Source of the DNA: a virus
DNA length: 27,402 bases
Virus record (IMG/VR): IMGVR_UViG_3300030108_001702
Span: 1 to 27,402 of that record
Direction: 5' to 3' (one strand)
How positions within the stretch are numbered: position 1 is the stretch's first letter; the number at the start of each line of letters is the position of its first letter. Of the stretch, positions 10,057 to 27,402 are shown piece by piece. The notes under the pieces are model-generated. The model had not been told where the DNA came from. It was given only the letters and a program-made list of their open reading frames with translations, and did not search any database. The position numbers and the translations under genes were made by a program.

Positions 10057-11165
10057 TGGACAAGAACTTTATAATAGAAGGCAAAGGATCAGGCCCACAA
10101 AAGAATAGAATGACGCAAAAGAGTGGTATTGCAACAAATATTACCCCTAGAGATCACATTGGCGCAGCTTTTGAACTACTCGATTCAGGCCGAATGAATG
10201 AAAGTCAAGCCTTGTCTTATGCTTTTGAACAATTAGATAAAGCTAAATCCCCCGAAGAATTAGAAATTTTAAAGAGACAAATAGAATCTAAAACCGCTAT
10301 GTCGATAGGAATCCCAAAAGGATTTTACGATAAATTAGATAGTTATTCTGTAAAAGGTCAAGGCACAATGAACTTTCAAACTGGTGGTGTTGTTCCTATT
10401 GAGAGAACGGGTACGGAGTCTACTTTATCTCCTTACGTAGGTGATTATGTGGTAGATATGCTAGGTCGGGGTAGGGCTGCGGCTTCTCAACCTTACACTG
10501 CATATACTGGACCTCTCACGGCTGGTGCTAGTGACCTACAACAACAAGCGTTTACAGGTATATCGGGACTAACTACTCCCACTGATATGGGATCTTTCTC
10601 TATTACTGACGAAGGGTTTGACATGGGTTCTTACATGAACCCCTATATAAGCAGTGTGCTTAACCCACAAATAGAAGAGATTAATAGACAAGCAGCCATA
10701 GGAAGATTGGATGCAAATAAGCGATTAACAGGTGCAGGAGCTTTTGGCGGGTCTCGTCAAGCTGTTATGGATTCAGAGTTAGAACGTGCCAGACTAGATG
10801 AAATAGCCCAGCTTACAGGAAGAACTTACGCAGACGCATATGACAAGGGTATTGCACAGTTTAACAGAGAAAGAGACAGAGCCACTGACTACGGGTTTGA
10901 TGTATTAGATGCACAACTAGGGGCAGGAGGCACACAAAGGGGTATTCTTGGAGAAGGTATCGCGGCTGACTACAAGCAGTTTATTGAAGAACGTGATTAT
11001 CCCTTGAAGACCGCGCAATACATGCAGTCGCTACTACAAGAATTACCTTTAGATTCACAAACATACCAATACACAGCGGCTGATCCCGTTGATGCAGGTA
11101 TAGCAGGTATAGGTGCAGGGATGGACCTTGTTGAGACTATAAGAGATATATTTGGACTTGGATAA
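10056..11165 (+). CDS. Putative internal virion / ejection protein (369 aa)
   Basis: A 369-aa protein starting in a TAATG overlap. An N-terminal helical part (1-95) is followed by MNFQTGGVVPIERTG (105 onward). Next comes a region with SPYVGDYVVDMLGRGRA and YTGPLTAGASDLQQQAFTGI, and then a long helical Ala/Arg/Glu-rich domain containing YMNPYISSVLNPQIEEINR, GAGAFGGSRQAVMDSELERA and AQLTGRTYADAYDKG. The same set of motifs is widespread in marine podovirus genomes, from memory, beside large ejection proteins. Its helical character and position fit a T7 gp14/P22 gp7-like role in the channel for DNA entry, but this is inferred. The C-terminus has Gly/Ala/Ile residues (AGIAGIGAGMDLVETI) that could insert in a membrane. 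Confidence 0.7.
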   Translation: MDKNFIIEGKGSGPQKNRMTQKSGIATNITPRDHIGAAFELLDSGRMNESQALSYAFEQLDKAKSPEELEILKRQIESKTAMSIGIPKGFYDKLDSYSVKGQGTMNFQTGGVVPIERTGTESTLSPYVGDYVVDMLGRGRAAASQPYTAYTGPLTAGASDLQQQAFTGISGLTTPTDMGSFSITDEGFDMGSYMNPYISSVLNPQIEEINRQAAIGRLDANKRLTGAGAFGGSRQAVMDSELERARLDEIAQLTGRTYADAYDKGIAQFNRERDRATDYGFDVLDAQLGAGGTQRGILGEGIAADYKQFIEERDYPLKTAQYMQSLLQELPLDSQTYQYTAADPVDAGIAGIGAGMDLVETIRDIFGLG

Positions 11166-11177
11166 AGAGGCGTAAGG

Positions 11178-13142
11178 ATGAATAATCCATTTGGGGATTT
11201 TGCAGGAGGTATAAACGATTTATACAAAGCTTATAGATCCAATCCTGCGCCACTAAGAAATCAAGTAAAAAAACCTAATATACCTAACCGTCTATCGAGA
11301 GCCATTGCACTTGAAATGGTAGACAAAGATATATCTGCAAAGTTACGCCAAAACAATTTAAACATGGCTGTGCCTACTAGTAGCGTCATAGAAAGATTAG
11401 AACAAAATGTTGCTGATAAGTACGACTCAATGGTTAATCGAACTTTAGCTACGATACAAAACCAAAATAGAAACAGAACTAGGGCGATGGACAACTTCTT
11501 TAACAGAGCCGCACGGTCACAACGAAGACCAAACCCTAGAGGAATGCTTCAAGGTGGTATTGTAAGTTTTCAGGAAGGCACAGGGGATCAAACTGTTGGA
11601 GATTCTGCCGCAGATCAAGAAATTGAACGAAACCAAGAACTATTTAACGAGCTATTAACTTATTTAAGTCCTGCCCAACGTGAAGCATTTGAAGCGGGGG
11701 GCAGCGAGCCGTCTTCTCTTACCTTAATAGCTCCTGAAGCTGTAGAAGCATTTAAAATAGATAAACTTAGAAAACCTGTTTTAACTCAAAAAAGATCCTT
11801 AGAAATTAAACGTAGACAAGAAGAAGCCGCAGAAAATTTAATTAAGGAAAACGAAAGAATAAGAGCAGAAAGAGAGGCAGAGGTAGCCGCTTATAGAGCA
11901 AAACAAGCTGCAAACGATCCTGAACGATTACTAGAACGACAACTTGGGTTAGGCACAACAGATTCAACGCCAGTAACAGAAGAAGCCCCAGCAGAAGGAA
12001 TGTCGGGATTAAAGGCATTAGAAGCACTTAATAAACAACAAGATGTTGCGGAAGAGAGAAGAGATCAAAGAAAAAAAGACAAGATAGAAGAATTAGCTGG
12101 GGAAAGTTTAGGAGCAGATCAAATCATTGAAGACGATCTCAAAGATAGAGCGAGAGATACAACGGGCGGTATAGCAAGTGGTGTTAATACAGTTTCTTTT
12201 GATCGCACTGGGCTTGATGCAGATATAGAAAGGGCAACGGGTATACAAGAAGGGGCACTTGAAAGAAGTAAAAACCAACTTGATTCGTTGTTAAATCAAA
12301 TACCCAGTAAAGCGGATGCTGAAGAAAGAGCAGAACGAAATAGAAGAGCAGTTCAGGGTATAAGTGATGCACGAACAGCTTTAGCGACAAAACAAAAACA
12401 GGCCATAGATGATTTTGCAAAACAACGCGGGAATCTTTCTAAGGAAGAAATAAGCAGATTACAAGATGAAATAGACAGATCAGAAGGCACAGGTAACTAT
12501 AGAAAAGCGGAAGCTTTAAAAAGGTTAAGAACCATATTAAGTTCTTTTGGAACAGGTAGTTTAACTGCTAGTAACAGAGCCGCTAACCAAGCAATGTTGA
12601 AGTATAGAGAAGATCAAGATACTTTTAGAAGAGAATATACGGAAGCAATCGGGGCTGAAAAGCTAAAAGAAGTAAACGCAAAGGCAGAAGATGCTGTAAA
12701 GAAAAATCAAATTGATGCAGATGCTTTAGATGGATTACAAAATACGCTCAAATTGCTTAGAGGGATAGACAAGGATCTTGCAGATTCTACAATAAATGTA
12801 CTTAATGCTAGAATATCTTTGGTAGATAAACTAAATAACGTTGATATTCAGAAAGCAGGTGTACAGGCACAGGCAATATTTGAAGGCTTGAAAGCTACCC
12901 TTAAAGGGTTTGACGTACAGATAGCAAATGCTAGAAATCAAAATCAGCTACTAGGTATTGCGGGTAGTCTCGCGGGTGACATGTTAGATAATATCGCTAA
13001 CTTAGAAGCAGCAGTTTCAATACTCCCAGATGACGCTACAGGTAAAGACAGATTAGTTGGCGAGATTGCAAGAATCAGAACAGAATACGATAAATTGCGT
13101 ACGGACCTGAGTCGAGCAGGTGTGCTTACTGGAACAAACTAA
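11178..13142 (+). CDS. Putative internal virion protein, long coiled coil (654 aa)
   Basis: A 654-aa protein, mostly charged alpha-helix. The N-terminal region (1-120) contains LSRAIALEMVDKDISAKLRQ and ends in RRPNPRG, followed by MLQGGIVSFQEG (about 123-134), a short Gly motif shared in style with the two preceding proteins. Residues about 215-260 (Arg/Glu/Ala-rich) and 340-560 are coiled-coil-like. The C-terminus is helical (LEAAVSILPDDATGKDRLVG). There is no enzyme motif. Two weak ribosome sites, AGAGG and AAGG, precede the ATG, with 12 bases after the previous stop. Lying directly before the giant ejection protein, it is plausibly a T7 gp15-like internal core component. Confidence 0.7.
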   Translation: MNNPFGDFAGGINDLYKAYRSNPAPLRNQVKKPNIPNRLSRAIALEMVDKDISAKLRQNNLNMAVPTSSVIERLEQNVADKYDSMVNRTLATIQNQNRNRTRAMDNFFNRAARSQRRPNPRGMLQGGIVSFQEGTGDQTVGDSAADQEIERNQELFNELLTYLSPAQREAFEAGGSEPSSLTLIAPEAVEAFKIDKLRKPVLTQKRSLEIKRRQEEAAENLIKENERIRAEREAEVAAYRAKQAANDPERLLERQLGLGTTDSTPVTEEAPAEGMSGLKALEALNKQQDVAEERRDQRKKDKIEELAGESLGADQIIEDDLKDRARDTTGGIASGVNTVSFDRTGLDADIERATGIQEGALERSKNQLDSLLNQIPSKADAEERAERNRRAVQGISDARTALATKQKQAIDDFAKQRGNLSKEEISRLQDEIDRSEGTGNYRKAEALKRLRTILSSFGTGSLTASNRAANQAMLKYREDQDTFRREYTEAIGAEKLKEVNAKAEDAVKKNQIDADALDGLQNTLKLLRGIDKDLADSTINVLNARISLVDKLNNVDIQKAGVQAQAIFEGLKATLKGFDVQIANARNQNQLLGIAGSLAGDMLDNIANLEAAVSILPDDATGKDRLVGEIARIRTEYDKLRTDLSRAGVLTGTN

Positions 13143-16100
13143 ATGGCTTCTGTAGCTGAGATAAAAACTTTTCTCGACTCTGCATCTGATGAGTTTAGAA
13201 AGTCTCCAAAATACCAACAAGTAGTGGATATATACGAAAGACGATCTTATAGAACGTACCGTCCCCCGAAACCTCCTCCTGAACCGGATATTATAGATCA
13301 ATTTGAAGAGTTTGCTAAAGGTATACCTGCGGGCATTGTAGGGCTTGGAGAGTTAGGTGCGTTAGGTATAGCCACTCTTTTAGACGAAGATAACGAACTT
13401 GCTGCGCGTAAAGCAATACAAGAAACAGCAGCCCCCATCAAAGAGTTTTTTAGTGCAGACAAGGGTTCAGAAGAAGCGGTAGGGCGTAAGTTTGGAGAAG
13501 CACTAGGTTCTTTTGCAGGATTAGGAATTACTTCTCTTGTGCCTTATGCAGGTGTTCCTTTGGCGGCAACGCTCGCTACAAGTGCTGGTGCTGGTGAAGC
13601 AAGTGAAAGGGCCAGAGCCGCAGGAGCAACTCAAGAAGAACGTAGTAGAGCCGCGTTACTCGGTACTGCTGTAGGGGCCAGTGAACTTATACCTATATTT
13701 AAACTGAAGAGTTTAAGAGAAGTTCTTGGAGACAACGCACTCCTTAACGGGGTAGAAAGAATAAAACGTGCCGCAACTGCGGGAGGATTTGAAGCAGCCC
13801 AAGAAGCCGCAGCGGGCATTGCACAGAATGCCATTCAACGTGGGTACGATCCTAGTCAAGATTTAATCAACGCTGATGTAGCAGAAGAAGGTACTTATGG
13901 TGGTGCGGTGGGTGCCACAGTACAGGCACTATTAGATTTATCACTGCCAAAAACTAGGAAAACAGGAGAAACTGGTCCGGTTGAAACGGGCGATCAGACT
14001 AAAGGAAAGACTGATGAAACGGTAAAAGGTGCGCTTGAAGGTCAATTTGATGACGATGCAGGTGGTGCAAAAGTAGAAACAAAAGAGACATTCCTTACTC
14101 AGGCACAGTTCGATAAACGTGTAAAAACGCTTGTAGACACTGAAAACGTCTCTGAAGAAGAAGCTAGAAGAACTGTTAGCTCTATAGCAACTTTGCGCCC
14201 TACAGAAAAAGAAGCCACTGATAAGATAAAAGGAAACTTAACTAGGGTAAAAAACTTATCAACTAGGGTTAACAATGACATAAAAACAATAAGTAATAAA
14301 AAATCTGACCCTAAAAAAGTAGAAGCTGCCAAACAAAGGCTGCTTGAGGACACAAAAACTTTAGGGCAAATCGGTCCTGAAGTTAATACCATACTTCAAC
14401 AGAGCGAGTTAAACCTAAAGAAGGGCGCAGTAAAGAAAGCATATGATTCTTATTTAGAAAAAGGGCCGTTACAAAAAGGCAATGAGCTATTAAAGAAAAG
14501 CAAACAATTTATTAAAGACAATAAGATACGCTCAACGCCAACGAGACTTAGAAAGTCGAAAGGTAAAATCGCTGATGGCGCAGTAGCTACAGGTACAATA
14601 GCTGATGGCGCAGTAACTGAAAACATAACCGCAACACCGGGTAAGGTTAGTGGTCCTACAGTAGATACTTCTAAGAAATTAAGTAGCGATGAAATCGAAT
14701 TAGCAGGGCTTAGAGAAACGCTAGATGGTCTCACTGGAGGTAAAGATGCAGAAGGCAACTATAGAAAAGCCACTATGGAGGATATGGATAGAATACTTAG
14801 TATTGAAGATCAAATAAAAGGAGTAGAAAAAAGAATTGCATCTGAAGCTCCCGCTGATACTACTGATACTACTGATACTACTGGTGCTACTGGTACTCCA
14901 GCCCCCGAAACATTCCTTAGCATAGAAACAGCAAAAGAAGATCCGAGTATAAAAAGAAGCGATACAAGTTTTATAGATAGTAGAAATAAAAAAGTACCTA
15001 TAGAGAAAACCACTACAAAAGATTTAAACGCTTACAACAATGTAAAAAATAATAAATTTACGAACGCCAAAGAAGAAGCGGCTCAAGCAATATTTGCACC
15101 TTACAAAACTATTCAAGATGGGTTTGACCATTTAGCATATCAAATTGCTGAATACCGAGCACGTATAGACAATAATGAAAGCCTATCAAGAAAAGAAAGA
15201 GCAGATTTGTTCTCTGAGTCTCCTTTTGAATTAGCTAGAAAACATGTGCTAGGTGAAGGAGGAGCCAAACCAAAAACGCCCTACAGTGATAGAGCACGAA
15301 AACATTTTATACTTTTAACTGATAATTACTATAAAGCACTTAATAAAAAATACATAAAAGAACGAAAACAAGCCGAAGCTGAAGCCGATGCTAAAGCCAA
15401 AGCCGAAGCTGAAGCCGATGCTAAAGCCAAAGCCGAAGCTGAAGCCCAAGCCGAAGCCGATGCTAAAGCCAAAGCTAAAGCTGAAGCCAAAACCAAAACC
15501 AAAGCCAAAACCAAAACCAAAACCAAAGCCAAAACCGCTGAAGAGAAAAGAAACGAAAAAAAGAAAAGAGAGATAGAGGCGGCACGGGCTAGAAAAGGTG
15601 GTGTAACAGATGAAACAGGCAATCTTAGAAATTTAAGCTTTGAAGAAATAGTTGCAATAAATAAAGAAAGGGCCAAAGAAAGAAGGGAAAAAGAAAAACA
15701 AGATAGATTAAAAAATCAAAATAACGAACGAAACGAAGCGTCAACAAAAGGAAGCGTTAGCCCCGTTAATAATGCCAAAATTGAAGCCGCGCAAAAAAGA
15801 GTTTTAGCAATAAATGCAGAGTTACAGACAACTCAAACCGAAATGGAACAAGCTATTACGGAAGGAGATAACAATAAAGCTAAAAAATTAGAAGGCAAAG
15901 AACAAAGACTAAAAAGAGAAAAAGCTAAACTTGTAAGGCAATTTCCTAGTATTGCAAACTTTGCGTTGCCAACAGAGGCGGTGCAAGAGTCTATAGAAAA
16001 CGTCAGCCCTAAAGTAGTTACTGCGCTGAAGAAAAACGATCTAGCCGCTGCGCTAGAGCAGATGTCTAATACAGCTACCTCTAACTACTTACGGATACTA

Positions 16101-19100
16101 AGCAAGCGTTTAGTGTCCCCGGTAACAGGTACGAAAGTTAAAGTAGTCAAGAACTTAAAGCTAAACGGCAAACCTGTGTCGGGGTCTTTTGATGCCACAA
16201 CTAACACCATATCGCTAGACAGCGTAACAGGAATCAACTACCACACAGTGTTGCACGAGGTAGGACATGCTCTGGGGCAATCTAATTTAGCTAATAACCC
16301 AACAAGTGCCTTCTCTGTGCAGATGAATAAACTTTATAACGAAGTGAAGGATCTGTTAGGTAGTGCATACGGAGTACAAGGAGGCGTACAAGAATTTTTT
16401 GCAGAGGGTATGAGTAACGAGTCTTTTAGAAAAGACTTAAATAAGTTACACATCAAGGGCGAACCCAAAAGTGTCTTGCAATATTTCCAAGAAATTACAC
16501 AAAACCTAATAAATAGAATATTCGGTAGGAATACTTACAAATCTAAAACGGCTTTGTCTGAGTTCAACGAGTTACTAGATACCGTACTGTCTCCTGATCC
16601 TGATGGACGAGGTGCTGAAAGGCTGTCTGCTGAAGCTGACTTAGAGGGAGTAGAACAATCTCTGGGAGTCATGGGATCTATATGGAAACAGCTACGCAAA
16701 AACCCTTTGAGCACTGGGGAGAGAAACAAACTTGCAGATGATTCAAGACAATTTCTTGAAGATGTGCCCAATGCAACAGGTAATTTAATGTTGAGTTTGA
16801 GGGGTCTGCAAGCCGTAGCTGATATATCTAAAAAATACTTTGGTGAATTAGGAGAATCACTTTACAGGGCCGTTAAAGAACAACGCGGGGCAATGCAGTT
16901 ATCAGATGAAAACGTAGACATTGTTGTAAATAGTTTGGCTAATATAGAGAAGAAATTCGGCAAAGAAGAATATGATCGTCTTTCTAAAGTTATTTATAGC
17001 GAAGAATACGGTGCCACCATATATCAAATTGATCCTACCTTAGATGATAACCAAGGGTTATTGCGGTATGGAGGTAGTAAAGCACAATATGCAAGATGGA
17101 AGAGAGTAAAGAAAGAATTTAATAACCTAGAAGGTGAAACCCAACGTGTTTACAAGCAAATGCGAGGGCTGTACAGAAGGCAGTATTTAAAACTAAGAGA
17201 CATACTTTATGATCGAATAGCCGCTACAGCAGGTAAAAAAGAAGCGGATAAGATAAAAAGTAAAGTTTTTGACAAGATATTTAGTAAGAACTTACTGGAC
17301 GTATACTTTCCTTTAGCAAGAGAGGGGCGGTATAAAGTTAAATATTTCACTAAGCCCACAAGCAAACGTGCGAAAAAAGACGTTTACAACATGGAGATGG
17401 TAGGCACTCTAGCCGAAGCCAACGACCTAGTAAAAGAACTAGAAGCTGATCCAGATGTCATAAGAGTAGAAAAACCAATAGACAGCAAGGTAGATGCAGG
17501 GTCACTCAGTGACAGAGTGCCACCAATAGGGTTTGTAAATGACATACTCACCGCGTTAGATAAAGGTCTAGCTCCTAAAAAAGGAGAGACAGAAACGCCT
17601 GAACAGCGAAAAATGCGAACACAGGTGAAAGAGCAAGTTGTAAATACGTTTGTTGAGACGCTTCCAGAGACTTCTGTTGCAAGGTCATTATCTAAAAGAA
17701 AGCAAATTGCAGGGTATAAAGAAGACCCTATGATAGCCTTGCGTACAAAAGCATACGATCTTGGTAGACAAGCCGTTCGTTTAGAAAGCAGTAAGAACAT
17801 ACTAGGGATAGAAAACAAAATCATAGAAGCTTATAAGGCTAAAGAAGATACTTTAGATAGGAGTCTTACTGGTAAATCTCTCACTCAAATATACCAAGAG
17901 TTACTGCTCAGAGCGGAGTTTGCACGTAATCCACCCCCCGACATGATAGCGCAGACAATAAACCAAGGAGCTTTTGTTTATACCATAGGATTTAACGCTT
18001 CTTCAGCCATAGTCAACCTATCTCAAGTGCCTTTGTTTGTGCTTCCTTATCTTGGTGGTAAGTACGGATACAGAAAAACTGTACCTGCAATGCTTAAAGC
18101 GGCACAAACAGTTACCAGATCGTTTAAAGATTTAGACGTAGGGTTAGATAATTTTTATTCGCGTGACTTTGAAGGAAACTACACGTTAGACCCTGACAAG
18201 GTTAAAGACATGAGTGCTGAAGACAAGAAGATGTTTAAAAACATGGAAGCACTTGTAGAATTAGCCACTAGGGAAGGCGCATTAACAAAGTCTTTCTTGA
18301 TAGATACTTTAGGGTTACAGAAAGAATCTTTTAAAACAGGAAGAGAAAGAACAGGATCTAGCCCAAGAAAAGTTTTAGATAAGATAACTGGCATCTCTGC
18401 CGCTATGTTTAACGTAGCAGAACGCTACAACAGACAGACTACTATGGTCATGTCTTATCAATTAGCTTTGGATAAAATTAGTGGAGGAAAAAAAGACTAC
18501 AAATTTACGAAAGAAGAACTAAACGCAGCCGCGCGTGAAGCTCTTGATGATACAGTAGATACTAACGGTGGGTCTTTCTTAGAAACTTCTCCAAGACTAT
18601 CTCAACAAGGTATAGGTAGAGTTGCCCTTATGTACAAGAACTACGGGCTACAGATGTACTATACAATGATTAAATCTGGGTACAAAGCTATGGGCAAAGC
18701 AGAGCTATCATCTGACCCAGAAGAAAATAAACGATTACGGAAAGAAGGCATAAAACAATTACTAGGCTTTCATGGGTCAGCTTTGTTCTTTGCAGGAGTG
18801 CAAGGACTGCCTTTGTATGGTGCGGTAAGTATGATTGCTAACGCATACCTTGACGATGATGAAGATGATTTTGATAAAATAGTAAGAGATTATATAGGTG
18901 AGGGTTGGTATAAAGGGGTAGTTAACCAACTCACAGGAGCAGACGTTGCTACAAGAATACGTTTGACAGGACTACTTATACAAGACAATAGATACAATAC
19001 TAAACCTTCTCCTGAAGAATTTATTGGATTTTACTTGGGTGGCCCCGCACTCAGCACCGTTAAACGTATTACAAGAGGTATAGAAGATCTTTCAAGTGGA

Positions 19101-19601
19101 GAGGTAGAGCGAGGAATAGAATCTATGCTCCCTGCAGGAATAGCAAACTTTTGGAAAGCTAATCCACTACTTAACGGTAGGTATGTACGTGAAGGCATAG
19201 TAACCCGAAGAGGTGATCCGATCTATGATGATATAAGTAGTGGCGAGTTAGCGGCTCAAATGTTTGGATTCGCTCCTAACGAGTACACGAAACGGCAAGA
19301 AGTAAACATGATCGAGAAAAAAATTGATCGTACTATTAATGAGAACAGAACAAAACTTCTTAGAGAGCTTTATGTAGCTACGAGACATAATGACGGAGAA
19401 AGAAGGAATGCAGCTTTTAAAGATATTCAAAAGTTTAATAATAAACATCCGACTTTTTACATAAGTATTAACACTATACAAAAATCCTTACGCTCCCATT
19501 TAAAAACATCTGCTTTGATGCACAATGGGGTTTTATTAAGTTCTGGTATGCGAAAGGCCATTGAAGAACAGACTGAGGCTTTAGAAACGCTATATGAATA
19601 A
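13143..19601 (+). CDS. Large polyvalent ejection protein with metallopeptidase domain
   Basis: A 2152-aa protein presumably stored in the virion and injected with the DNA. Residues 60-81 and 118-165 are Gly/Ala-rich hydrophobic stretches in a context (GATQEERSRAALLGTAVGAS, then GGFEAAQEAAAG) typical of the membrane-active N-terminus of phage large polyvalent proteins. Residues 280-940 are charged and repeat-rich. They hold two IADGAVT units (477-491), DTT x3 (572-580) and an Ala/Lys/Glu tract (about 743-800). Residues about 950-1130 form a zinc-peptidase-like domain: H1038-E1039-V-G-H1042, with a downstream EFFAE (E1084, E1088) able to give the third ligand. The C-terminal kilo-residue has the QGAFVYTIGFNASSAIVNLS region (about 1608), a hydrophobic patch near 1873 and a final helical domain (about 2040-2150). 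This resembles large polyvalent protein C-terminal domains (LPD38 type, from memory). It is the last gene of the arm. Confidence 0.85.
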   Translation: MASVAEIKTFLDSASDEFRKSPKYQQVVDIYERRSYRTYRPPKPPPEPDIIDQFEEFAKGIPAGIVGLGELGALGIATLLDEDNELAARKAIQETAAPIKEFFSADKGSEEAVGRKFGEALGSFAGLGITSLVPYAGVPLAATLATSAGAGEASERARAAGATQEERSRAALLGTAVGASELIPIFKLKSLREVLGDNALLNGVERIKRAATAGGFEAAQEAAAGIAQNAIQRGYDPSQDLINADVAEEGTYGGAVGATVQALLDLSLPKTRKTGETGPVETGDQTKGKTDETVKGALEGQFDDDAGGAKVETKETFLTQAQFDKRVKTLVDTENVSEEEARRTVSSIATLRPTEKEATDKIKGNLTRVKNLSTRVNNDIKTISNKKSDPKKVEAAKQRLLEDTKTLGQIGPEVNTILQQSELNLKKGAVKKAYDSYLEKGPLQKGNELLKKSKQFIKDNKIRSTPTRLRKSKGKIADGAVATGTIADGAVTENITATPGKVSGPTVDTSKKLSSDEIELAGLRETLDGLTGGKDAEGNYRKATMEDMDRILSIEDQIKGVEKRIASEAPADTTDTTDTTGATGTPAPETFLSIETAKEDPSIKRSDTSFIDSRNKKVPIEKTTTKDLNAYNNVKNNKFTNAKEEAAQAIFAPYKTIQDGFDHLAYQIAEYRARIDNNESLSRKERADLFSESPFELARKHVLGEGGAKPKTPYSDRARKHFILLTDNYYKALNKKYIKERKQAEAEADAKAKAEAEADAKAKAEAEAQAEADAKAKAKAEAKTKTKAKTKTKTKAKTAEEKRNEKKKREIEAARARKGGVTDETGNLRNLSFEEIVAINKERAKERREKEKQDRLKNQNNERNEASTKGSVSPVNNAKIEAAQKRVLAINAELQTTQTEMEQAITEGDNNKAKKLEGKEQRLKREKAKLVRQFPSIANFALPTEAVQESIENVSPKVVTALKKNDLAAALEQMSNTATSNYLRILSKRLVSPVTGTKVKVVKNLKLNGKPVSGSFDATTNTISLDSVTGINYHTVLHEVGHALGQSNLANNPTSAFSVQMNKLYNEVKDLLGSAYGVQGGVQEFFAEGMSNESFRKDLNKLHIKGEPKSVLQYFQEITQNLINRIFGRNTYKSKTALSEFNELLDTVLSPDPDGRGAERLSAEADLEGVEQSLGVMGSIWKQLRKNPLSTGERNKLADDSRQFLEDVPNATGNLMLSLRGLQAVADISKKYFGELGESLYRAVKEQRGAMQLSDENVDIVVNSLANIEKKFGKEEYDRLSKVIYSEEYGATIYQIDPTLDDNQGLLRYGGSKAQYARWKRVKKEFNNLEGETQRVYKQMRGLYRRQYLKLRDILYDRIAATAGKKEADKIKSKVFDKIFSKNLLDVYFPLAREGRYKVKYFTKPTSKRAKKDVYNMEMVGTLAEANDLVKELEADPDVIRVEKPIDSKVDAGSLSDRVPPIGFVNDILTALDKGLAPKKGETETPEQRKMRTQVKEQVVNTFVETLPETSVARSLSKRKQIAGYKEDPMIALRTKAYDLGRQAVRLESSKNILGIENKIIEAYKAKEDTLDRSLTGKSLTQIYQELLLRAEFARNPPPDMIAQTINQGAFVYTIGFNASSAIVNLSQVPLFVLPYLGGKYGYRKTVPAMLKAAQTVTRSFKDLDVGLDNFYSRDFEGNYTLDPDKVKDMSAEDKKMFKNMEALVELATREGALTKSFLIDTLGLQKESFKTGRERTGSSPRKVLDKITGISAAMFNVAERYNRQTTMVMSYQLALDKISGGKKDYKFTKEELNAAAREALDDTVDTNGGSFLETSPRLSQQGIGRVALMYKNYGLQMYYTMIKSGYKAMGKAELSSDPEENKRLRKEGIKQLLGFHGSALFFAGVQGLPLYGAVSMIANAYLDDDEDDFDKIVRDYIGEGWYKGVVNQLTGADVATRIRLTGLLIQDNRYNTKPSPEEFIGFYLGGPALSTVKRITRGIEDLSSGEVERGIESMLPAGIANFWKANPLLNGRYVREGIVTRRGDPIYDDISSGELAAQMFGFAPNEYTKRQEVNMIEKKIDRTINENRTKLLRELYVATRHNDGERRNAAFKDIQKFNNKHPTFYISINTIQKSLRSHLKTSALMHNGVLLSSGMRKAIEEQTEALETLYE
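14571..14615 (+). repeat. Direct repeat, 15 bp x 2, 30-bp period (ADGAV)
   Basis: GCTGATGGCGCAGTA occurs at 14571-14585 and again at 14601-14615 inside the giant ejection protein gene. The translated units (KIADGAVA and TIADGAVT) look like phage tail-fibre shaft repeats. Confidence 0.9.
14856..14882 (+). repeat. Tandem repeat, 9 bp x 3 (Asp-Thr-Thr)
   Basis: Three exact copies of GATACTACT (14856-14864, 14865-14873, 14874-14882) followed by degenerate GGTGCTACTGGTACT. It codes for a DTT/GATGT linker in the giant ejection protein, next to a Pro-rich turn. Confidence 0.93.
15371..15535 (+). repeat. Ala/Lys/Glu low-complexity repeat (30-bp unit x about 2.5, then 6-bp AAACCA-type units)
   Basis: A 30-base unit (AGCCGAAGCTGAAGCCGATG followed by CTAAAGCCAA) is repeated exactly at 15371-15400 and 15401-15430, with a partial third copy to 15446. 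It then degrades into AAAGCC/AAAACC hexamers to about 15535. It encodes alternating Ala with Glu/Asp/Lys, then Lys-Thr/Lys-Ala pairs, like the long charged helices of TolA-type proteins. Confidence 0.93.
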
Positions 19602-19672: not shown

Positions 19673-19903
19673 TCACACCGTTCTCCACACTCGTAACCCT
19701 AAACAACCGTTTTCGACCCATATTTTAGTTAAAAACTGCCATTTTCTCTGTACAAATACGTCTTTTATCTGTTTTTTAGCTTTTTCCGTATTAATACAGG
19801 GTATAAAAATAGAGGCGTTTACGTGCATAGTATCCCAATCTACTACTATTTTTACTCCATCTGGAGACAAATCATAAGTCCGAAGTATCTCCGGTTTCGT
19901 CAT
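19673..19903 (-). CDS. Small protein of unknown function (76 aa), end of replication operon
   Basis: The product starts MTKPEILRTYDLSPDG, continues with KIVVDWDTMHVNASIFIPCI and ends LGLRVWRTV. The balanced mix of strands and one Lys-rich helix (NTEKAKKQIKDVFVQRKW) looks like a real folded domain. The gene overlaps the 3' end of the primase-helicase gene by 32 bases. Three in-frame starts exist (GTG 19912, ATG 19909, ATG 19903). The 19903 start is chosen because GTAGGTG lies 6 bases before it. No family is recognised; translation with the primase suggests a helper in replication. Confidence 0.65.
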   Translation of the reverse strand: MTKPEILRTYDLSPDGVKIVVDWDTMHVNASIFIPCINTEKAKKQIKDVFVQRKWQFLTKIWVENGCLGLRVWRTV

Positions 19904-22712
19904 TGTCATCACCTACCGTAAACTTCATAACTAATACGTCTGCTGGAGGTAGATTAAGTTTAGTGCCTTTACTCAAACGAACTTTCGCTCTCTTACCCTC
20001 GCAGTGTTCTTTTATCTGTTTCAATAAATATGCATAGTTTATCTGTTGTTCTCCACACCAAGTTTTTAATATCTTTGGTACCACATAAAACTTTTGTGTG
20101 TCAGTTTCGTATCTAGCTACCAACTTACCCCTAGCTATAGCATCAGGTATTACTAAAGTATCTAAACCATTTCCCTGTAGCTTTCTATTATCGTAGGTGC
20201 TTTCTATCTGTAGGATGTTACTTATGTGTTCGCTAAAGAAGTTATTCATGGTGTCAAATACCGAAGTGCCTGTATTCGTTTCCATATTGCGTTTGTTTTG
20301 AGCTATTAAAGTGTTAATAGTCCAATTAAATATTTTTTTAGTATCAAAGTTTACCAGCCCTATCCGCTTTGCAAGAATTAAACCTGATAGCGTAGCCGCT
20401 ATATGGGCTGACCAAAAACGATTCTCTGACTCTAACTTACCTATTGTGTCAACACGGTCTTTAACCTTCTTTGTTAAAGCTCTTACTTCATCTAAATTAT
20501 TCATCACATACTGCACAAAAGGCACAGCCGCCACGCCATAAGTACCTTTCTTAACTTTTTCCTCAAATGCGTAGGCTTCTTTAATTGATCCAAACAGATG
20601 CTTTACACTCGGTACAAAACACTCCAATACCCTCTGTGCCTCGGCTTTCGCCATAGCCTTTGCCATGCTGACACGTTCTATGATACTGGCGTTGCCTGTT
20701 GTTATCGCTAACAAGTGCCAAGGTCTCCCCCTGTACCGTTCTATGTTACCCTTAGACGACATACGGTTGCGTTGTTTACCAGAGGTAAATTGATACAGTA
20801 TCTGCGATGCTTGTTGCGGGGTTATATTAGTAATCTCATCTATCGCCCAAGGTAAGTTATGGTATACCTCGCCACGGTTCATTCTACTATAGTGCGTGTC
20901 CTCATGGTCTAACATCAACTTCTCTGGACTCCCCCATATACCCAAAGAAGCAAATACAGCACTAGTCTTACCTACACCAGACTCGTCACTATGAAGGTGC
21001 ATGGCCGCACAGTTGGCATTAAAAAACTCCATGAGCACAGAGCCAAAACCTGTGCCTAGTACATACTGGTATAATTCAAATCCCTCTCTGTCCCAGAAGG
21101 AGATTACTTGTTTCCACTCCTCTAATGTTCCTCTAGGTTCAAATGAATCAAAGTGCGCTATTGTCGAAGCGGTAGGGGGGTTAAACTCTATACTGTTAGG
21201 TAGTATCTTCTGGTTGCCTAGTATGAAAGCATCCATCTTTCCATCTGCCCATCCAAACTGTCTTTGGGCATCTTTTGCTATACTGTTTGATTGTAATTCG
21301 TTAATCCATGTGGTCGTATAAGCCATCAACTCATCCATCTTCATCACAGCTACCCCCTCTGCGGATAGCGTTTTACGAAATTCTTCCCTTGAGGTAATCG
21401 CACTCAAAGGTAACGTAAACTCTTTTACCCCGTCTTTAGGCAAGTGCAATCTCATTACCGCACACTCTCCTAACTCAGGATCACGCACTCTATCTGTTAC
21501 GTAGAGGTCATTATGATATATGCTCTTCTCGTCAAAGTCTCCGTCTGAATTAGTTGTCCTTAGAAATACACCCCCCTTGACACCACGAAAATATGGTTTG
21601 GGGTATATGGGTATCTCATAACTACTTACCTCTTCTTCATCTAGTGAGGATAACTTATACGATGTAGTATTTTCTGAATCAGGTTCAGACTCTTTGTATC
21701 TATTACCCAAAACAATGGGTGATTTTACTTTACCCCAGTTCGGACAGTTAGGGCATACATCGGGATTGAATTCATCAAACTTCGCACAAGTATATGGGCC
21801 TTTTATCGGACCAAACTTCTTTTCAGTCGCTTCTTGTGAATAGTCAGGATGCCTATTTGACAGGATATGAGAGGCTTTTTTACCGTCCACGCAGAATCTA
21901 GCAATAGATAGCCCCGCTCTCCACATCGGTTCACTGGTGTTTTCTTGATCCTTGATAATTATTTTTAACTGTTCGCACCCCCGCCCTGCTTTTGTTTTCT
22001 TTACTATGTCTAAAAAGCAAGACTCTCGATTTCCCATCAAAGCATTCATCACCGCATTACCACCGGACGGTGTTACCTTCGTTAAAGGGGGGACTAACTC
22101 AGTGCCTAATAATCTCGAAAAGTTATCAAAATCACGACATTCAATGTCAACATTACCTAACCCATGCACCTCAGAAGGAGGCTCGGTCTTGTGATTGTGT
22201 GTTAAAGGTACACGTAAAACCCTAGCTGTATCCGCAGTTACTGCAGGGTCAGCAAAAAAATTGTGTTCAGCACAAACCTTTTTAAACCGCTCCGCAGTCT
22301 GTATCCAATCTTCAGGCGTTATGTTGTCTGACATGGGCCAGTAAACATGTATACCTCTACCAGAGTCTACGGTAATTGGTTCTGGTAAACGTAAAGACAT
22401 GCAGAACTTCTGCAGAGCATCAACCGCTTCTATCTTAGAGCCATAGTCTTTACTTGGCCCACAATCTAAATCAAGAAACAAACTACGCATATAGCGCACG
22501 TTGGTCGCTTTTCTTGATCCTTCTTCTTCAAACGTAGCTAACGCAAAATAAACATCGTATCCGTCAACGTCTAGTTGTTCCGCATCATTTATTAGCGAGT
22601 GCGTATCTTTGTAGAACCTTTGCACTCTCTTGGATGTGGATGCGTTAGCGGCAAATAAACAGTAATAACCACTATCAGCTAATACCGCTTTTAAAAACTT
22701 ATCGGTATTCAT
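19872..22712 (-). CDS. Primase-helicase (PrimPol-type N-terminus, DUF927-type ATPase)
   Basis: A 946-aa protein that likely primes and unwinds phage DNA. The N-terminal primase domain (about 50-200) has the archaeo-eukaryotic primase pattern: LFLDLDCG with D81 and D83, DSGRGIHVYWPM with S117 and H122, then DTARVLRVP with R164. Cysteines C309, C320 and C323 (CPNCPNWGKVKSPIVLG region) look like a zinc-binding element between modules. The C-terminal half has a DUF927-like region and a P-loop ATPase. Walker A is SDESGVGKT (575-583, K582) and a Walker B-like stretch is LPWAIDEITN (D625, E626). A strong AGGTGG sits 4 bases before the ATG. A hairpin separates it from the upstream SSB-like gene, and its 3' end overlaps the 76-aa gene. 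Confidence 0.85.
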   Translation of the reverse strand: MNTDKFLKAVLADSGYYCLFAANASTSKRVQRFYKDTHSLINDAEQLDVDGYDVYFALATFEEEGSRKATNVRYMRSLFLDLDCGPSKDYGSKIEAVDALQKFCMSLRLPEPITVDSGRGIHVYWPMSDNITPEDWIQTAERFKKVCAEHNFFADPAVTADTARVLRVPLTHNHKTEPPSEVHGLGNVDIECRDFDNFSRLLGTELVPPLTKVTPSGGNAVMNALMGNRESCFLDIVKKTKAGRGCEQLKIIIKDQENTSEPMWRAGLSIARFCVDGKKASHILSNRHPDYSQEATEKKFGPIKGPYTCAKFDEFNPDVCPNCPNWGKVKSPIVLGNRYKESEPDSENTTSYKLSSLDEEEVSSYEIPIYPKPYFRGVKGGVFLRTTNSDGDFDEKSIYHNDLYVTDRVRDPELGECAVMRLHLPKDGVKEFTLPLSAITSREEFRKTLSAEGVAVMKMDELMAYTTTWINELQSNSIAKDAQRQFGWADGKMDAFILGNQKILPNSIEFNPPTASTIAHFDSFEPRGTLEEWKQVISFWDREGFELYQYVLGTGFGSVLMEFFNANCAAMHLHSDESGVGKTSAVFASLGIWGSPEKLMLDHEDTHYSRMNRGEVYHNLPWAIDEITNITPQQASQILYQFTSGKQRNRMSSKGNIERYRGRPWHLLAITTGNASIIERVSMAKAMAKAEAQRVLECFVPSVKHLFGSIKEAYAFEEKVKKGTYGVAAVPFVQYVMNNLDEVRALTKKVKDRVDTIGKLESENRFWSAHIAATLSGLILAKRIGLVNFDTKKIFNWTINTLIAQNKRNMETNTGTSVFDTMNNFFSEHISNILQIESTYDNRKLQGNGLDTLVIPDAIARGKLVARYETDTQKFYVVPKILKTWCGEQQINYAYLLKQIKEHCEGKRAKVRLSKGTKLNLPPADVLVMKFTVGDDNDETGDTSDL

Positions 22713-22722
22713 AGATCCACCT
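22713..22722 (-). promoter_or_regulatory. Strong ribosome binding site of the primase-helicase
   Basis: On the minus strand AGGTGGATCT immediately precedes ATG (22712). It is the best Shine-Dalgarno of the module. It allows independent initiation after the intergenic hairpin and fixes the start of the 946-aa protein. Confidence 0.7.
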
Positions 22723-22735
22723 AAAAATAAAGGAT

Positions 22736-22766
22736 GCTAGGGAGAGAGTAACTCCCTATCCCTAGC
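22736..22766 (-). terminator. Long hairpin between SSB-like and primase genes (attenuator/terminator or processing site)
   Basis: On the minus strand GCTAGGGA pairs with TCCCTAGC (8 bp). After a 2-base TA bulge, GGGAG pairs with CTCTC (5 bp, one G-T) around a TTA loop. This gives 13 pairs in 31 bases. It is followed by ATCCTTTATTTTT, a broken T-rich tail. It begins 9 bases after the SSB-like stop codon and ends before the primase ribosome site. It probably lowers read-through into the primase, or stabilises or processes the upstream mRNA end. Confidence 0.7.
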
Positions 22767-22774
22767 AAAGCTGA

Positions 22775-24076
22775 TTAGTCGTCAGTGAGCCACTCATCAA
22801 TCTGAGCGTCCAAATCATCATCCTTTACTTTCGGTGCAGGTTTTTCTTTCTTTGCCACCTTCTTAGGTTCTTCAGGTTCATCTTCAAAACCATCGTCATT
22901 CGCAGGTTCTGCAGTAGCTTCTTCTGCAAACGGACTTAGCTCCTCTTCAACAGCGAACTCTTCGTCTACTTCAAAAGGAGAAGCAACGTCTTTTCTAGGT
23001 GCCTCTTTGAGCACTTGTATCTCACGCAGTCTAAGACTCGTGCCGTTGCCATTTAGGTGATACGGTACAAAATCTACGTTGACAGTAATAATACTACCTG
23101 TAGTAAGTTGATACCCCTCGTCCATCGGTCTGTTGTTAGCATCCCAATGTTTTGGGGGTGTGGTTGGATTGCCACTGTATGCCGCTTTGATCTTTGTTTT
23201 TATTTGAAAAACAGCATCCTTATTTTTAATAGACCCTTCCAACACTTTAAAATTGTGCTTGAATGGGGGCCATTTCGGTTCTTTTTTCTCTTCATACGCT
23301 TTTTTCATAGCTTGCATGAGAGGGAGTGCCGTTTCGTAAGAAACTTTTAAATCGACTGTGTACTCCGCGCCATCATCTTTTGCTTGGCAAGGCACACTTC
23401 TACCTTCGGTATTGTCAAACCTGTAAGGTTTATCGAGTTTTGGGTAAAGTGCTTCCACTCTTCTGATTGTATAATCAGCCATATCTTCGTTCTCCGTTGC
23501 ATTAAAATTAAGTGTTATTGCTTTTATCGTATCGGGATGATTAGCCATCTCCTCCACTGTGCTTTTCTCTGTTCTGTCTATGGGTCTGACAGGTGAGAAA
23601 AATAACTTTGGTACCAAACTGTCAGTATCAAAGTAAATCTTTGTGTAAACACTTACACAAGATGTATCGTTCTTACTTAAAAACCGCGCGTATTCTTGTA
23701 ACGGCATGTGCCCATTGTTTTGCCGCCCGAAAATACTATTTGCAGGGACATGTAATTGATGCACTGCGTAGTCATTTTCAAAAAGAACAGCTAGTTTCTG
23801 TGAGAACCTACAGGCACGGCCACCGTTAGGCGCACTGCCACGTATATCGTGCTTGCAATCCATGCATCGTGTAGCTTGTCTCTTAGGAACTTCATCGTCC
23901 GGTCGCTGAGTATCAGAGGACCAACAAATAGGTACTTGTGGGTTGTTAGGGTCATATTCACCCTCGTAGTACGCCCGTTGTACTTGTGATGCGTTGACAA
24001 TGATACATTCGATTTCATCTTGGCAATGAATACCAAAAGTAAACTTGCGATCACGGATGCTAACTCTATCCATCAT
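22775..24076 (-). CDS. ssDNA-binding-protein-like, zinc-containing N-terminus
   Basis: A 433-aa protein. The N-terminal half has four cysteines spaced like a zinc site (C51, C71, C74, C89: PICWSS, RCMDCKHD, RACRF) and the block SIFGRQNNGHMPLQEYARFL. The C-terminal half has strands FKVLEGSIK, VFQIKTKIKAAYSG, YQLTTGSIITVNVDFVPYHL and TSLRLREIQVLKEAPRKD. These recall the OB-like DUF2815 family found in phage replication cassettes. The end is strongly acidic (DDDLDAQIDEWLTDD), as in many single-stranded DNA-binding proteins, where such a tail recruits partners. It starts in an ATGA overlap with the HTH gene without a clear ribosome site, so translation is probably coupled. Role by family resemblance, tail and neighbours; not proven. 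Confidence 0.65.
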   Translation of the reverse strand: MMDRVSIRDRKFTFGIHCQDEIECIIVNASQVQRAYYEGEYDPNNPQVPICWSSDTQRPDDEVPKRQATRCMDCKHDIRGSAPNGGRACRFSQKLAVLFENDYAVHQLHVPANSIFGRQNNGHMPLQEYARFLSKNDTSCVSVYTKIYFDTDSLVPKLFFSPVRPIDRTEKSTVEEMANHPDTIKAITLNFNATENEDMADYTIRRVEALYPKLDKPYRFDNTEGRSVPCQAKDDGAEYTVDLKVSYETALPLMQAMKKAYEEKKEPKWPPFKHNFKVLEGSIKNKDAVFQIKTKIKAAYSGNPTTPPKHWDANNRPMDEGYQLTTGSIITVNVDFVPYHLNGNGTSLRLREIQVLKEAPRKDVASPFEVDEEFAVEEELSPFAEEATAEPANDDGFEDEPEEPKKVAKKEKPAPKVKDDDLDAQIDEWLTDD

Positions 24077-24336
24077 ATATCATCGTCCAAACCTGTCCAT
24101 TTAAGCACTGGCATACCCTCTTCTTCAGCTAGAGTTTCTTGCCATTTTTGCGTGGTGTCAGACTTAGTTTCGCCTGTCAGAGACTTTTCAATCTCGTCAA
24201 GTTTGAAACGATAGGTATTACCTATCTTGATGTAAGTGTTTCTAGGTATGAGGTTTTTGCGTAGCCACACCCTCACTGTAGAAATACTTACGTCAAACTT
24301 TTTTGCGACAGCGTTAATAGTTACGTACTCGCTCAT
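24073..24336 (-). CDS. Small excisionase/MerR-type helix-turn-helix protein
   Basis: An 87-aa protein. Residues 4-52 (YVTINAVAKKFDVSISTVRV, then WLRKNLIPR, IGNTYRFKLDEIEKSL) form a winged helix-turn-helix of the excisionase/HTH_17 type, with the usual wing ending in a Lys/Arg-rich strand. The C-terminal 35 residues are acidic (AEEEGMPVLKWTGLDDDI). GAGAGGTAAGAA precedes the ATG. It overlaps the Gp157-like gene upstream (ATGA) and the SSB-like gene downstream. With no integrase seen in the window, a regulatory or replication-origin role is more likely than excision, but excision cannot be ruled out because the genome is incomplete. Confidence 0.8.
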   Translation of the reverse strand: MSEYVTINAVAKKFDVSISTVRVWLRKNLIPRNTYIKIGNTYRFKLDEIEKSLTGETKSDTTQKWQETLAEEEGMPVLKWTGLDDDI

Positions 24337-24749
24337 TTCTTACCTCTCGGTTTTTGAACAGTTATCGTATATTCCGCGTTTTGATTTAAACCCTGTGGTA
24401 TAAGTTCTTTATTCTCTTCAGAGTTCAAGAACTCTTCTAAGTTAGATTGAGATATTCTTTTTTGAAGGACTTCAGGTATTTGATGCTCTTTTATAAAAGC
24501 AAAAAATTTCTCCCAATCGCTTGTCCAATAAGAAACTTTCTTTTTTCTAATGAAAGTACCTTCAGCAGTTTTTACAGAATCAATATCGTTGACACGACAA
24601 TGATCTAAAAGAGCCGCCTTGATCTTATCTTGTTTAGCTGTAAGTCTCTTATCTTCTGCTTCAAAATCAGATTTAAGCTGACTGCGCTTATCTCGCAGGG
24701 TGCGGAAAGCCTTGACGAGCTTGGGTAAGCTCGGTACATTATTCTCCAT
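24333..24749 (-). CDS. Gp157-like phage protein (138 aa)
   Basis: A 138-aa protein. Residues about 10-60 are a charged coiled coil (LPKLVKAFRTLRDKRSQLKS and onwards). A beta-prone stretch follows, with KTAEGTFIRKKKVSYWTSDW (about 60-79), then a helical part (FFAFIKEHQIPEVLQKRISQ) and AEYTITVQKPRGKK at the end. This helix-then-beta design resembles the siphovirus Gp157 group placed in phage recombination/replication cassettes; resemblance is moderate. The ATG at 24749 is preferred over the upstream GTG (24767) because GGAGAAATGCA lies directly before it. A possible promoter precedes it. Confidence 0.65.
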   Translation of the reverse strand: MENNVPSLPKLVKAFRTLRDKRSQLKSDFEAEDKRLTAKQDKIKAALLDHCRVNDIDSVKTAEGTFIRKKKVSYWTSDWEKFFAFIKEHQIPEVLQKRISQSNLEEFLNSEENKELIPQGLNQNAEYTITVQKPRGKK

Positions 24750-24788
24750 TGCATTTCTCCGTTGCACCAGAATTAACTGGGAAACTTG

Positions 24789-24817
24789 ACTTTATTACTT
24801 AATTGTTAGCTAGTCAA
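24789..24817 (-). promoter_or_regulatory. Candidate sigma70-like promoter for the Gp157/HTH/SSB/primase genes
   Basis: On the minus strand TTGACT (24817-24812) is separated by 17 bases from TAAAGT (24794-24789), about 40 bases before the ATG at 24749. The -35 box matches consensus at 5 of 6 positions, the -10 box at 4 of 6. It lies in one of only two real gaps in the leftward gene run. The -35 overlaps one arm of a 7-bp inverted repeat (CTTGACT 24785-24791 and AGTCAAG 24812-24818 on the plus strand). Moderate support only. Confidence 0.35.
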
Positions 24818-26345
24818 GCAAATCTTTATATAAATCGATTATTTTTGTGTGAATGTTAATTCTACTATCTAACAGTGAGTAGATACGCTTTTCTACAGGC
24901 GAACTTTGTAGTTGCACCACCGTACACTTCTGATCTTGACCTGATCTATGTACCCTCGCGTTCGCCTGTGCATAGGTTTCTAAGGAACTTGTTGGTCCCC
25001 ACCATACCACCGTGTTAGCGGCTGTCAGTGTCACACCGTGAGCCGCAGACTGAGGCTGAATGATAAGCACCTTGGGGTCGGGCATAGTTTGGAATCGTTT
25101 AAATATCTCCGTCCTTTTGGGCGCAGATACGTCACCACGTATTATATCTGAGGTTATTTTATCTTTAGTTAGTTTGTCTTTTAATATATCTATGACATGT
25201 TTAAACGGCACAAACACCAAGACTTTTTTACTAGACTCATCTATAACTTCTTTCAGCACCTTATATCTGTGCGATATATCAAACTCAAGAGCTTCACCAC
25301 CGTCCGTGTACACCGCGCCACATGATATTTGCAACAGCTTATTCATGTTTACAGCCGCGTTGGGTGCGGTGATTTGTTCTCCTGCCGCTTGCATTACCAT
25401 TCTATCTTTTAGCTCTTGATAGTATTTCTTCTGTTGTCGTGACATCTCTACTTCACGTTTGGTATACACCATGTCTGGCAGATCGAGACATTCTTCTTTT
25501 GTAAAACGAATAGCGGGCTGAAGTGCTTTAAACACTGTATCTACTGAAGAATCTTTTGGTATCCACTTAAATTGTGTGATTTTCACCATCACCATGTCTC
25601 TAAATGAACTGTAAAATTTTGGTACCGCAGTTGGATTAATTAATTTAGCTAACCCGTACGCATCAAGTGGGCTTTGTGCCGCAGGGGTTCCGGTCATCAT
25701 CCATAACCACTTATCAGGAGTAAGTAACTTGTTGAGCACTTTCCATCGTTTAGTCTGTGCGTTTTTATAATGCGTGGCTTCGTCAACGATTATCAAGTCA
25801 AACCCACCGTTAGCGATATCATCTGCAACTACTTCTACGCCGTCATAGTTAATGATGACGTATTCTGCACCTTGATTAATTATCTTCTTACGTTTCTTTG
25901 CATCTCCGTAAGCAATGTCCACCGTGCGGTGCATAGCAAAGGTAAATAGGTCTGTTCGCCAAGCACTATCCATGATAGACAGTGGGCATATCACAAGCAC
26001 TCTATTTATCTTGCCTTCTTTCATAAGATAATCACTAGCCCAGATAGCACTAGCGGTCTTGCCTGTGCCTTGTTCGTTAAAGCAAAAAGCACGTTTGTGA
26101 AGGGTTAAGAAAGAGGACGTAGTTTTCTGATGCTCAAAAGGTTTTAACTTTCCTGCCCATTTATACCGCGACTCAATGGGAGAGGGTACTTTTATAGAGA
26201 GGTTATTAAGTACATGGGTTTCATCTAGCCCCCAGTTAACCAGCACCTGATTGTCTGGTAGCTTCTTACTTTTAGGTATAAGATCAACGACTTTATCTGG
26301 GTCACGTAGCCTTAGTAAGACGGCTCTATCTCTTACGATTTGCAC
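24810..26345 (-). CDS. SNF2-family DNA helicase/translocase
   Basis: A 511-aa SF2 ATPase that would remodel or translocate on DNA during replication or recombination. The motifs in order are: LKPFEHQ (68-73) at the Q/Ia region; Walker A NEQGTGKTASA with K96; DEAT box VDEATHYKN (D188, E189); motif III MTGTPAAQSP (217-225); helicase C-terminal VLVFVPFKHVIDIL (376-388); PQSAAHGVTLTAA (431-443); and motif VI YAQANARVHRSGQ (458-470, R464 and R467). The length and lack of extra domains match the short SNF2 helicases of phages. The start is GTG (26345), overlapping the HNH-like gene by 20 bases; no in-frame ATG is near. It lies in the cassette with the polymerase, nuclease and SSB. Confidence 0.9.
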   Translation of the reverse strand: MQIVRDRAVLLRLRDPDKVVDLIPKSKKLPDNQVLVNWGLDETHVLNNLSIKVPSPIESRYKWAGKLKPFEHQKTTSSFLTLHKRAFCFNEQGTGKTASAIWASDYLMKEGKINRVLVICPLSIMDSAWRTDLFTFAMHRTVDIAYGDAKKRKKIINQGAEYVIINYDGVEVVADDIANGGFDLIIVDEATHYKNAQTKRWKVLNKLLTPDKWLWMMTGTPAAQSPLDAYGLAKLINPTAVPKFYSSFRDMVMVKITQFKWIPKDSSVDTVFKALQPAIRFTKEECLDLPDMVYTKREVEMSRQQKKYYQELKDRMVMQAAGEQITAPNAAVNMNKLLQISCGAVYTDGGEALEFDISHRYKVLKEVIDESSKKVLVFVPFKHVIDILKDKLTKDKITSDIIRGDVSAPKRTEIFKRFQTMPDPKVLIIQPQSAAHGVTLTAANTVVWWGPTSSLETYAQANARVHRSGQDQKCTVVQLQSSPVEKRIYSLLDSRINIHTKIIDLYKDLLD

Positions 26346-26619
26346 TGGGCTTCTTCTTTTTGTAGTTTCTTGATCTATTCTTGCTTTTACTTTCTATTCG
26401 CACACCGTCTTTATTACTGCCGCCTTTGCTAAGTGCTTTCTTATGGGAAACGTCCTTACCTTCTCTCTTGTCGGCTTTTCCATTTTTGTTCTTGTCCACG
26501 CCTGTTTTATCAATCTTACGCCTCGCTCTCTGGCGTTCCATACGATTTTCATGTTCTCCCCTTGCTTTTTGTTGTTTATATTCTTTTTTATAAGGTCTTG
26601 GTTTATTTTTGTATGGCAT
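26326..26619 (-). CDS. Small HNH-like basic protein (97 aa)
   Basis: A 97-aa, extremely basic protein. The centre has GKDVSHKKALSKGGSNKDG (54-72) and then RIESKSKNRSRNYKK. The layout D-V-x-H with a later Asn (N69/N81) is that of small HNH-fold proteins common in marine phages, where the usual form is 'DVDHKDGNP...NLR..S...NRS'. H59 would be the catalytic or structural His; the second Asp of DVDH is Ser58 here, so nuclease activity is uncertain. The ATG at 26619 is chosen because GGGAGG precedes it by 5 bases and it shares a base with the nuclease stop (TGATG). A longer reading from 26643 would overlap the nuclease. Nicking, DNA binding or packaging roles are all possible. Confidence 0.7.
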   Translation of the reverse strand: MPYKNKPRPYKKEYKQQKARGEHENRMERQRARRKIDKTGVDKNKNGKADKREGKDVSHKKALSKGGSNKDGVRIESKSKNRSRNYKKKKPSANRKR

Positions 26620-27302: not shown

Positions 27303-27402
27303 AGCTACTACCCACACCTGACTCGCAATCAATGGGCAAACCTTCTGCCCAATCGGGAGTCCATCTCATACATTCTTCGATGTACGACTGTGCCTCCGAA
27401 AC
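27286..27402 (-). CDS. C-terminus of a probable family A DNA polymerase (partial)
   Basis: Reading leftward from the window edge (27402) there are 38 codons, then TAG at 27288-27286. The product includes AQSYIEECMRWTPDWAEGLP and IDCESGVGSSYGECE. The combination of an amphipathic helix (EECM), PDWAEGLP and a final Gly/Tyr tail is how phage family A polymerases commonly end, with WAEGLP-type turns, from memory. The following genes (nuclease, SNF2, SSB-like, primase) support this. Only the extreme end is visible, so catalytic motifs cannot be checked and the call is provisional. Confidence 0.5.
   Translation of the reverse strand, partial: VSEAQSYIEECMRWTPDWAEGLPIDCESGVGSSYGECE

Follow-up and report, generated by a model that had tools for sequence, protein, structure and literature searches.

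Zincin domains in ejected phage proteins

Zincin metallopeptidase (MPTase) domains are the commonest domains of phage polyvalent proteins, occurring in about 36% of them, and 12 clades have been published, together with an HEXXXH variant (Iyer et al. 2017, PMC5512222). These authors suggested that such zincins process their own proteins before packaging, in the head, or after delivery or else that they attack host proteins (PMC5512222). The structure of the HExxH domain of N4 vRNAP has already been solved (PMC12633501). In the PhiM1 ejectosome, residues 268 to 528 of TEP were named "endolysin/exotransglycosidase-like" (PMC11440229), and a text search turned up neither a zinc site nor a protease described for this protein.

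The window (the whole stretch of DNA analyzed here) is an entire virus record of 27,402 bases, so the genome is probably incomplete. It carries a plus-strand gene (positions 13143 to 19601, identified from its open reading frame and family matches) for a giant protein of 2,152 amino acids. Like phage polyvalent proteins with an MPTase (PMC5512222), this giant protein combines LPD domains with a three-stranded sheet, an HExxH motif, and a Glu on the next helix. DarB-like proteins are among its PHROGs matches, but the methylase-helicase pair common in those proteins is absent. The C1 domain of N4 gp50 (residues 2124 to 2375; PMC12633501) likewise has an HExxH zincin fold followed by a large helical C terminus in an ejected giant protein; no significant match was found between the C-terminal part of the window protein and N4 gp50. 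A first-pass annotation had contrasted the domain, as a different solution, with the lytic transglycosylase of T7 gp16. Zincins in ejected giant proteins were catalogued in 2017 (PMC5512222), with the N4 domain as a solved case (PMC12633501), and the window domain is a further example of a described kind.

Layout of the giant protein

The Gly/Ala-rich, hydrophobic N-terminal region (residues 60 to 270; positions 13320 to 13952, plus strand) has columns conserved among relatives and contains hydrophobic segments at residues 61, 127, 170, and 250. It is followed by a poorly conserved, low-complexity linker with Lys/Ala/Glu-rich repeats (residues 280 to 940; 13980 to 15962, plus strand). The zincin domain, delimited by its AlphaFold2 model and fold matches (residues 956 to 1130; 16008 to 16532, plus strand), precedes an LPD39 domain (residues 1216 to 1385; 16788 to 17297, plus strand; Pfam PF18858, E value of 4e-8, exceeding the Pfam cutoff) and a tail-700 (PLxRFG) region (residues 1387 to 2134; 17301 to 19544, plus strand; NCBIfam NF032893, E value of 2e-95), which NCBIfam titles "PLxRFG domain-containing protein." The C-terminal half is homologous to giant phage proteins, and LPD39 is present in 16 of 21 relatives. 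Polyvalent proteins are recognized by several unrelated domains, LPD and MPTase domains among them; with a zincin fold, LPD39, and a tail-700 C terminus, the 2,152-amino-acid protein is a polyvalent protein. Zincin, LPD39, and tail-700 form a fixed module, N-terminal of which all sequence varies among relatives, the long variable linker lying directly upstream.

Neither an RNA polymerase nor, with Pfam and NCBIfam, a lytic transglycosylase domain was found in the protein. A lysozyme or transglycosylase reading was rejected, there being no such family match in this protein or in PhiM1 gp48. Residues 1390 to 1457 (positions 17310 to 17513) carry a PLxREG version of the PLxRFG motif; in the fold comparison, this segment matched 63 residues of the CapRel antitoxin-like region (Z score of 6.7, root mean square deviation [rmsd] of 2.2), which may be due to chance.

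Conservation of the HExxH site

The protein contains a single HExxH, H1038 to H1042 (positions 16254 to 16268, plus strand), within HEVGHALG, which begins at residue 1038 (base 16254); there are 12 histidines in the whole protein. E1084 (16392 to 16394, plus strand) and E1088 (16404 to 16406, plus strand) lie within EFFAE. In 20,000 composition shuffles, any HExxH arose in 0.56% of trials and an HExxH with a downstream E...E in 0.14%.

Relatives were gathered from viral contigs by two patterns outside the HExxH, TKVxVVK and FDxxTNTI, which yielded 80 loci. Every viral domain collected (the 80 loci and one further from the first scan) contained HExxH. Conservation was scored in 54 sequences of less than 90% mutual identity that were 31 to 47% identical to the window. 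H1034, H1038, E1039, H1042, E1084, F1085, E1088, and N1092 were invariant in all 54; F1016 and TNTI were also invariant, which is not independent evidence, as both stretches were search patterns. The first-pass annotation had placed a zinc site at H1038, E1039, and H1042 followed by E1084 and E1088 and had made the reading conditional on conservation in homologues; both the positions and the conservation hold in sequences selected outside the motif. To these site residues we add the invariant H1034, on the active-site helix (16242 to 16244, plus strand), and Y1076 (16368 to 16370, plus strand), which is kept in 50 of 54 sequences and aligns with the Tyr of the M34 peptidase active site.

A second test used loci fetched with the C-terminal part alone as the query. 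All 66 loci with at least 330 amino acids upstream of the C-terminal match contained HExxH, at a median of 182 residues ahead of the match, and 64 contained the downstream ExxxE. Because the 54-sequence and 66-locus sets overlap in part and come from related phages, the 66 loci cannot be counted as independent events. The expected ExxxE is missing from one member (L152) of the wider set. A DNA-level search against phages returned no match, and a scan of genome contigs returned one weak relative, which is without HExxH.

Predicted fold and the third zinc ligand

AlphaFold2, run on the 54 sequences, gave a model with a mean pLDDT of 79.9 and values mostly of 89 to 97 for residues of about 953 to 1120. 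Strands were predicted at residues 998 to 1002, 1010 to 1017, and 1022 to 1026, the last being the β-strand that had been proposed ahead of the HExxH. The motif itself lies on a predicted helix (1033 to 1051), and E1084 and E1088 lie on a second one (1081 to 1091), the arrangement expected from the first reading.

VIA-align 2 ranked PhiM1 gp48 first (8vb2, residues 289 to 516; Z score of 7.9, rmsd of 3.9, 142 aligned residues) and N4 vRNAP second (9pnt, residues 2124 to 2366; Z score of 7.8, 166 aligned residues); Z scores below 8 do not suffice as proof by themselves, but almost all of the leading rows are zincins, in agreement with the sequence motif and with the zinc peptidase assignment made at the outset. 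Lower rows included many M34 lethal-factor structures (Z score of about 5), SPRTN-type 6mdw (4.5), PPEP-2 (4.4), and ArdC (3.7). Against predicted viral structures, Foldseek found 20 matches below 1e-3 for the zincin domain, including "Internal protein D" of Bordetella phage BB8, large polyvalent proteins, and a core protein of Pseudomonas phage Ab05. Against the PDB, Foldseek gave no match below an E value of 0.06 for this domain, and a single-protein PDB search gave low-complexity matches only. For the C-terminal half, no solved relative was found: Foldseek searches of the PDB with the C-terminal 937 residues yielded nothing below an E value of 0.09, and VIA-align with residues 1216 to 2152, a comparison bearing on the C-terminal hub fold of T7 gp16-type ejection proteins, listed no T7 gp16, N4, or PhiM1 row; neither search gave a confident match. 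As modeled, the domain is an intact gluzincin-type zinc peptidase fold with a predicted complete HExxH...E site.

In the sequence profile alignment, YGxxxxEFFAE falls on the Y...E segment of M34 peptidases, and we take E1084 to be the counterpart of their third zinc ligand (PPEP, lethal factor). PhiM1 gp48 has HEAAH at residues 385 to 389, Y442, and E449, the last at the E1084 position; the position of E1088 is occupied by Gln in PhiM1 and by Trp in 9sfn (phiKMV type), while HExxH and the third Glu are kept. Because E1084 is aligned with the M34 third-ligand Glu and is kept in PhiM1 gp48, where E1088 is replaced, it appears likelier than E1088 to be the zinc ligand. M34-type gluzincins (Pro-Pro endopeptidases and lethal factor) share the HExxH, the Y...E spacing, and the EFFAE helix with the window protein, with fold Z scores of about 4 to 5.5, but they are secreted enzymes or toxin parts rather than virion proteins, and the best sequence E value is 0.03. 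The site pattern agrees with MEROPS M34 members, but similarity to them was not significant (best profile E values of 0.03 to 0.4), and we do not claim M34 membership for the domain. The original description, "gluzincin/metzincin-like," stands in its first half, on the fold and the distant Glu. Metzincins have the pattern HExxHxxGxxH; a distant Glu ligand does not fit it, and the metzincin label was rejected.

The endolysin-like domain of PhiM1 and phiKMV

A profile of the zincin domain searched against the whole PDB found PhiM1 gp48 as its best match (E value of 6e-4). In gp48 (L172:294-2884), HEAAH, Y442, and E449 occur in zincin spacing, and HEAAH and the Glu of EF are kept in four members of its family; no Pfam domain of any kind was found in this protein. 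The phiKMV gp37 family, for which many records read "peptidoglycan lytic exotransglycosylase" or "with endolysin domain," shares this HExxH segment, which occurs in about 95 of its records. PhiM1 residues 268 to 528 and the phiKMV gp37 family domain are thus probably the same zincin, as judged from profile, spacing, and fold match. We found no literature report of a zincin in this PhiM1/phiKMV domain (subscription journals lay outside our coverage). PhiM1 gp48 is a tetrameric ejection protein (8vb2; PMC11440229) of half the length of the window protein. In Pectobacterium phage Peat1 (L174:152-2884), annotation divides the internal core protein between two genes, with the break directly ahead of the zincin; the first part is 1,122 bases, and the HExxH lies at residue 57 of the second gene, through either a sequencing error or a real split.

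Relatives in named phages

The HExxH lies 1,066 to 1,194 residues from the C terminus in Rollin, POI1126, Skulduggery, Pavtok, VS-ABTNL-3, and RHph_TM29; some HExxH sites in phages with the same C terminus are not significant against the zincin profile. The giant proteins of Rhizobium phage RHph_TM29 (2,328 amino acids) and Pseudomonas phage Rollin (2,184 amino acids) resemble the window protein in layout, length, and place of HExxH, and their C termini are about 21 to 22% identical to it. In small-set searches, the zincin profile matched RHph_TM29 with an E value of 3.4e-14 and Rollin weakly (E value of 0.001). The Rollin protein (L086:6453-13007; HEMGH at residue 1052, tail-700 C terminus) is labeled an oligopeptide ABC transporter protein, apparently a misannotation. 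Vibrio phage douglas 12A4 (L091:5700-14780) has HELITH (HExxxH) where its relatives have HExxH, in keeping with the HEXXXH variant of Iyer et al. (PMC5512222).

Gene neighborhood and ejection

The giant gene sits among phage late (virion) genes and is the last of the structural module, after the tail and smaller internal protein genes. Ahead of it lie genes for a holin, an endolysin (3599 to 4081), and a tail structural ("stabilization") protein (4082 to 5968, plus strand; PHROG 3287 and relatives), followed by genes for proteins of 741, 448, 369, and 654 amino acids. By gene order, the 448-amino-acid protein (8710 to 10056, plus strand) belongs to the structural module and the 369-amino-acid protein (10056 to 11165, plus strand) is a candidate ejection protein. 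The 654-amino-acid protein encoded directly upstream (11178 to 13142, plus strand) is a candidate second ejection protein: among 35 relatives whose start is intact, 32 have an open reading frame of more than 400 amino acids at this place, and the remaining three are at contig ends. It has no family match, and a PDB profile search was also empty; with its poorly conserved relatives it shares the motif MAxGGIVxFxxG, with P118, G126, and G127 invariant in 31.

The module of the relative DSL-LC04 ends with a gene labeled "DNA transfer protein." In CRP-901, HTVC027P, and DSL-LC04, which are close in the tail protein, the last structural gene examined lacked HExxH; the giant protein and the tail module are therefore not simply inherited together. 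PhiM1 gp48 and N4 vRNAP, which are closest in fold, are both ejected (PMC11440229, PMC12633501). Homology and gene order together indicate that the 2,152-amino-acid protein, the largest presumed ejection protein of this short-tailed phage, is probably packed in the head and ejected into the cell with the DNA; the context supports ejection well.

Tail to tail with the giant gene, positions 19872 to 27332 hold minus-strand replication genes: a primase/helicase with DUF927, a single-strand annealing protein, an SNF2 helicase, and a PD-(D/E)XK nuclease, in an order that recurs in RHph_TM29. A minus-strand primase near the giant gene is common to the window, Rollin, and the RHph_TM29 group.

Possible roles of the zincin

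In the mechanism that we propose, zinc would be held by H1038, H1042, and E1084, with E1039 as the general base. The zincin would cut peptide bonds; the likeliest target is the long variable linker of the protein itself, or else a partner ejection protein, and the cut, made at any stage from before to after ejection, would separate the membrane-prone N-terminal part from the C-terminal core. We favor such a function in the protein's own life, self-processing or partner processing, and give it about an even chance of being right. The constant place of the zincin beside LPD39/tail-700, with everything in front variable, favors it over a host effector, a structural role, or a wall hydrolase. P1 DdrB, which carries such a domain, is processed before packaging (PMC5512222). 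Against self-processing speaks the delivery without any processing of three proteins that have related domains, N4 vRNAP and the plasmid-encoded ArdC and TraC1 (PMC5512222). No cleavage site was recognizable in the sequence of the 2,152-amino-acid protein.

The zincin might instead be an injected effector with at least one host protein, located in the envelope or the cytoplasm, as its target, for example, a defense protein. This alternative, put forward by Iyer et al. (PMC5512222), gains from fold relatives that include peptidases acting on foreign proteins and from the presence, in one family member, of an ART-PolyVal domain, whose kind is predicted to act on host proteins by modifying them. 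We nonetheless consider it rather unlikely, since the module is constant in place and strictly conserved across phages that must differ in host, whereas effectors usually turn over, and the sequence suggests no host target. Alternatively, the domain might serve mostly in the structure or packaging of the ejection protein, its peptidase activity weak or lost. This would accord with the N4 region including the MPTase domain, which is needed for encapsidation of a protein packaged uncut (PMC5512222), with the place of the PhiM1 domain in a folded ejectosome (PMC11440229), and with the missing ExxxE of L152; we judge it improbable, as the invariance of E1039 and all ligands, which a scaffold would not need, argues for catalysis rather than structure alone. 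Degradation of peptidoglycan or its cross-links in place of the T7 gp16 transglycosylase, suggested by the same place in the ejection module and by the term endolysin-like for the equivalent PhiM1 domain (PMC11440229), is highly improbable given a fold that resembles protein peptidases rather than wall hydrolases, a PhiM1 gp48 without a Pfam lysozyme or transglycosylase domain, and the separate endolysin gene in the window.

More broadly, we tentatively propose, at somewhat less than an even chance, that an intact zincin belongs to the standard ejection machinery of several short-tailed phage groups that are only distantly related (tail-700, phiKMV/PhiM1-like, and N4-like phages), where it would act at genome entry by cutting either the ejected proteins or a target in the host, and that the PhiM1 "endolysin-like" domain is that protease. 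The analysis suggests that this domain bears a wrong name, both in the ejectosome publication and in numerous GenBank records. The window family offers a strictly conserved, fully intact example for the role of zincins in ejected phage proteins, catalogued in 2017. Because phiKMV and PhiM1 are in culture and their ejection proteins of this kind have been solved, the connection to them makes that role directly testable.
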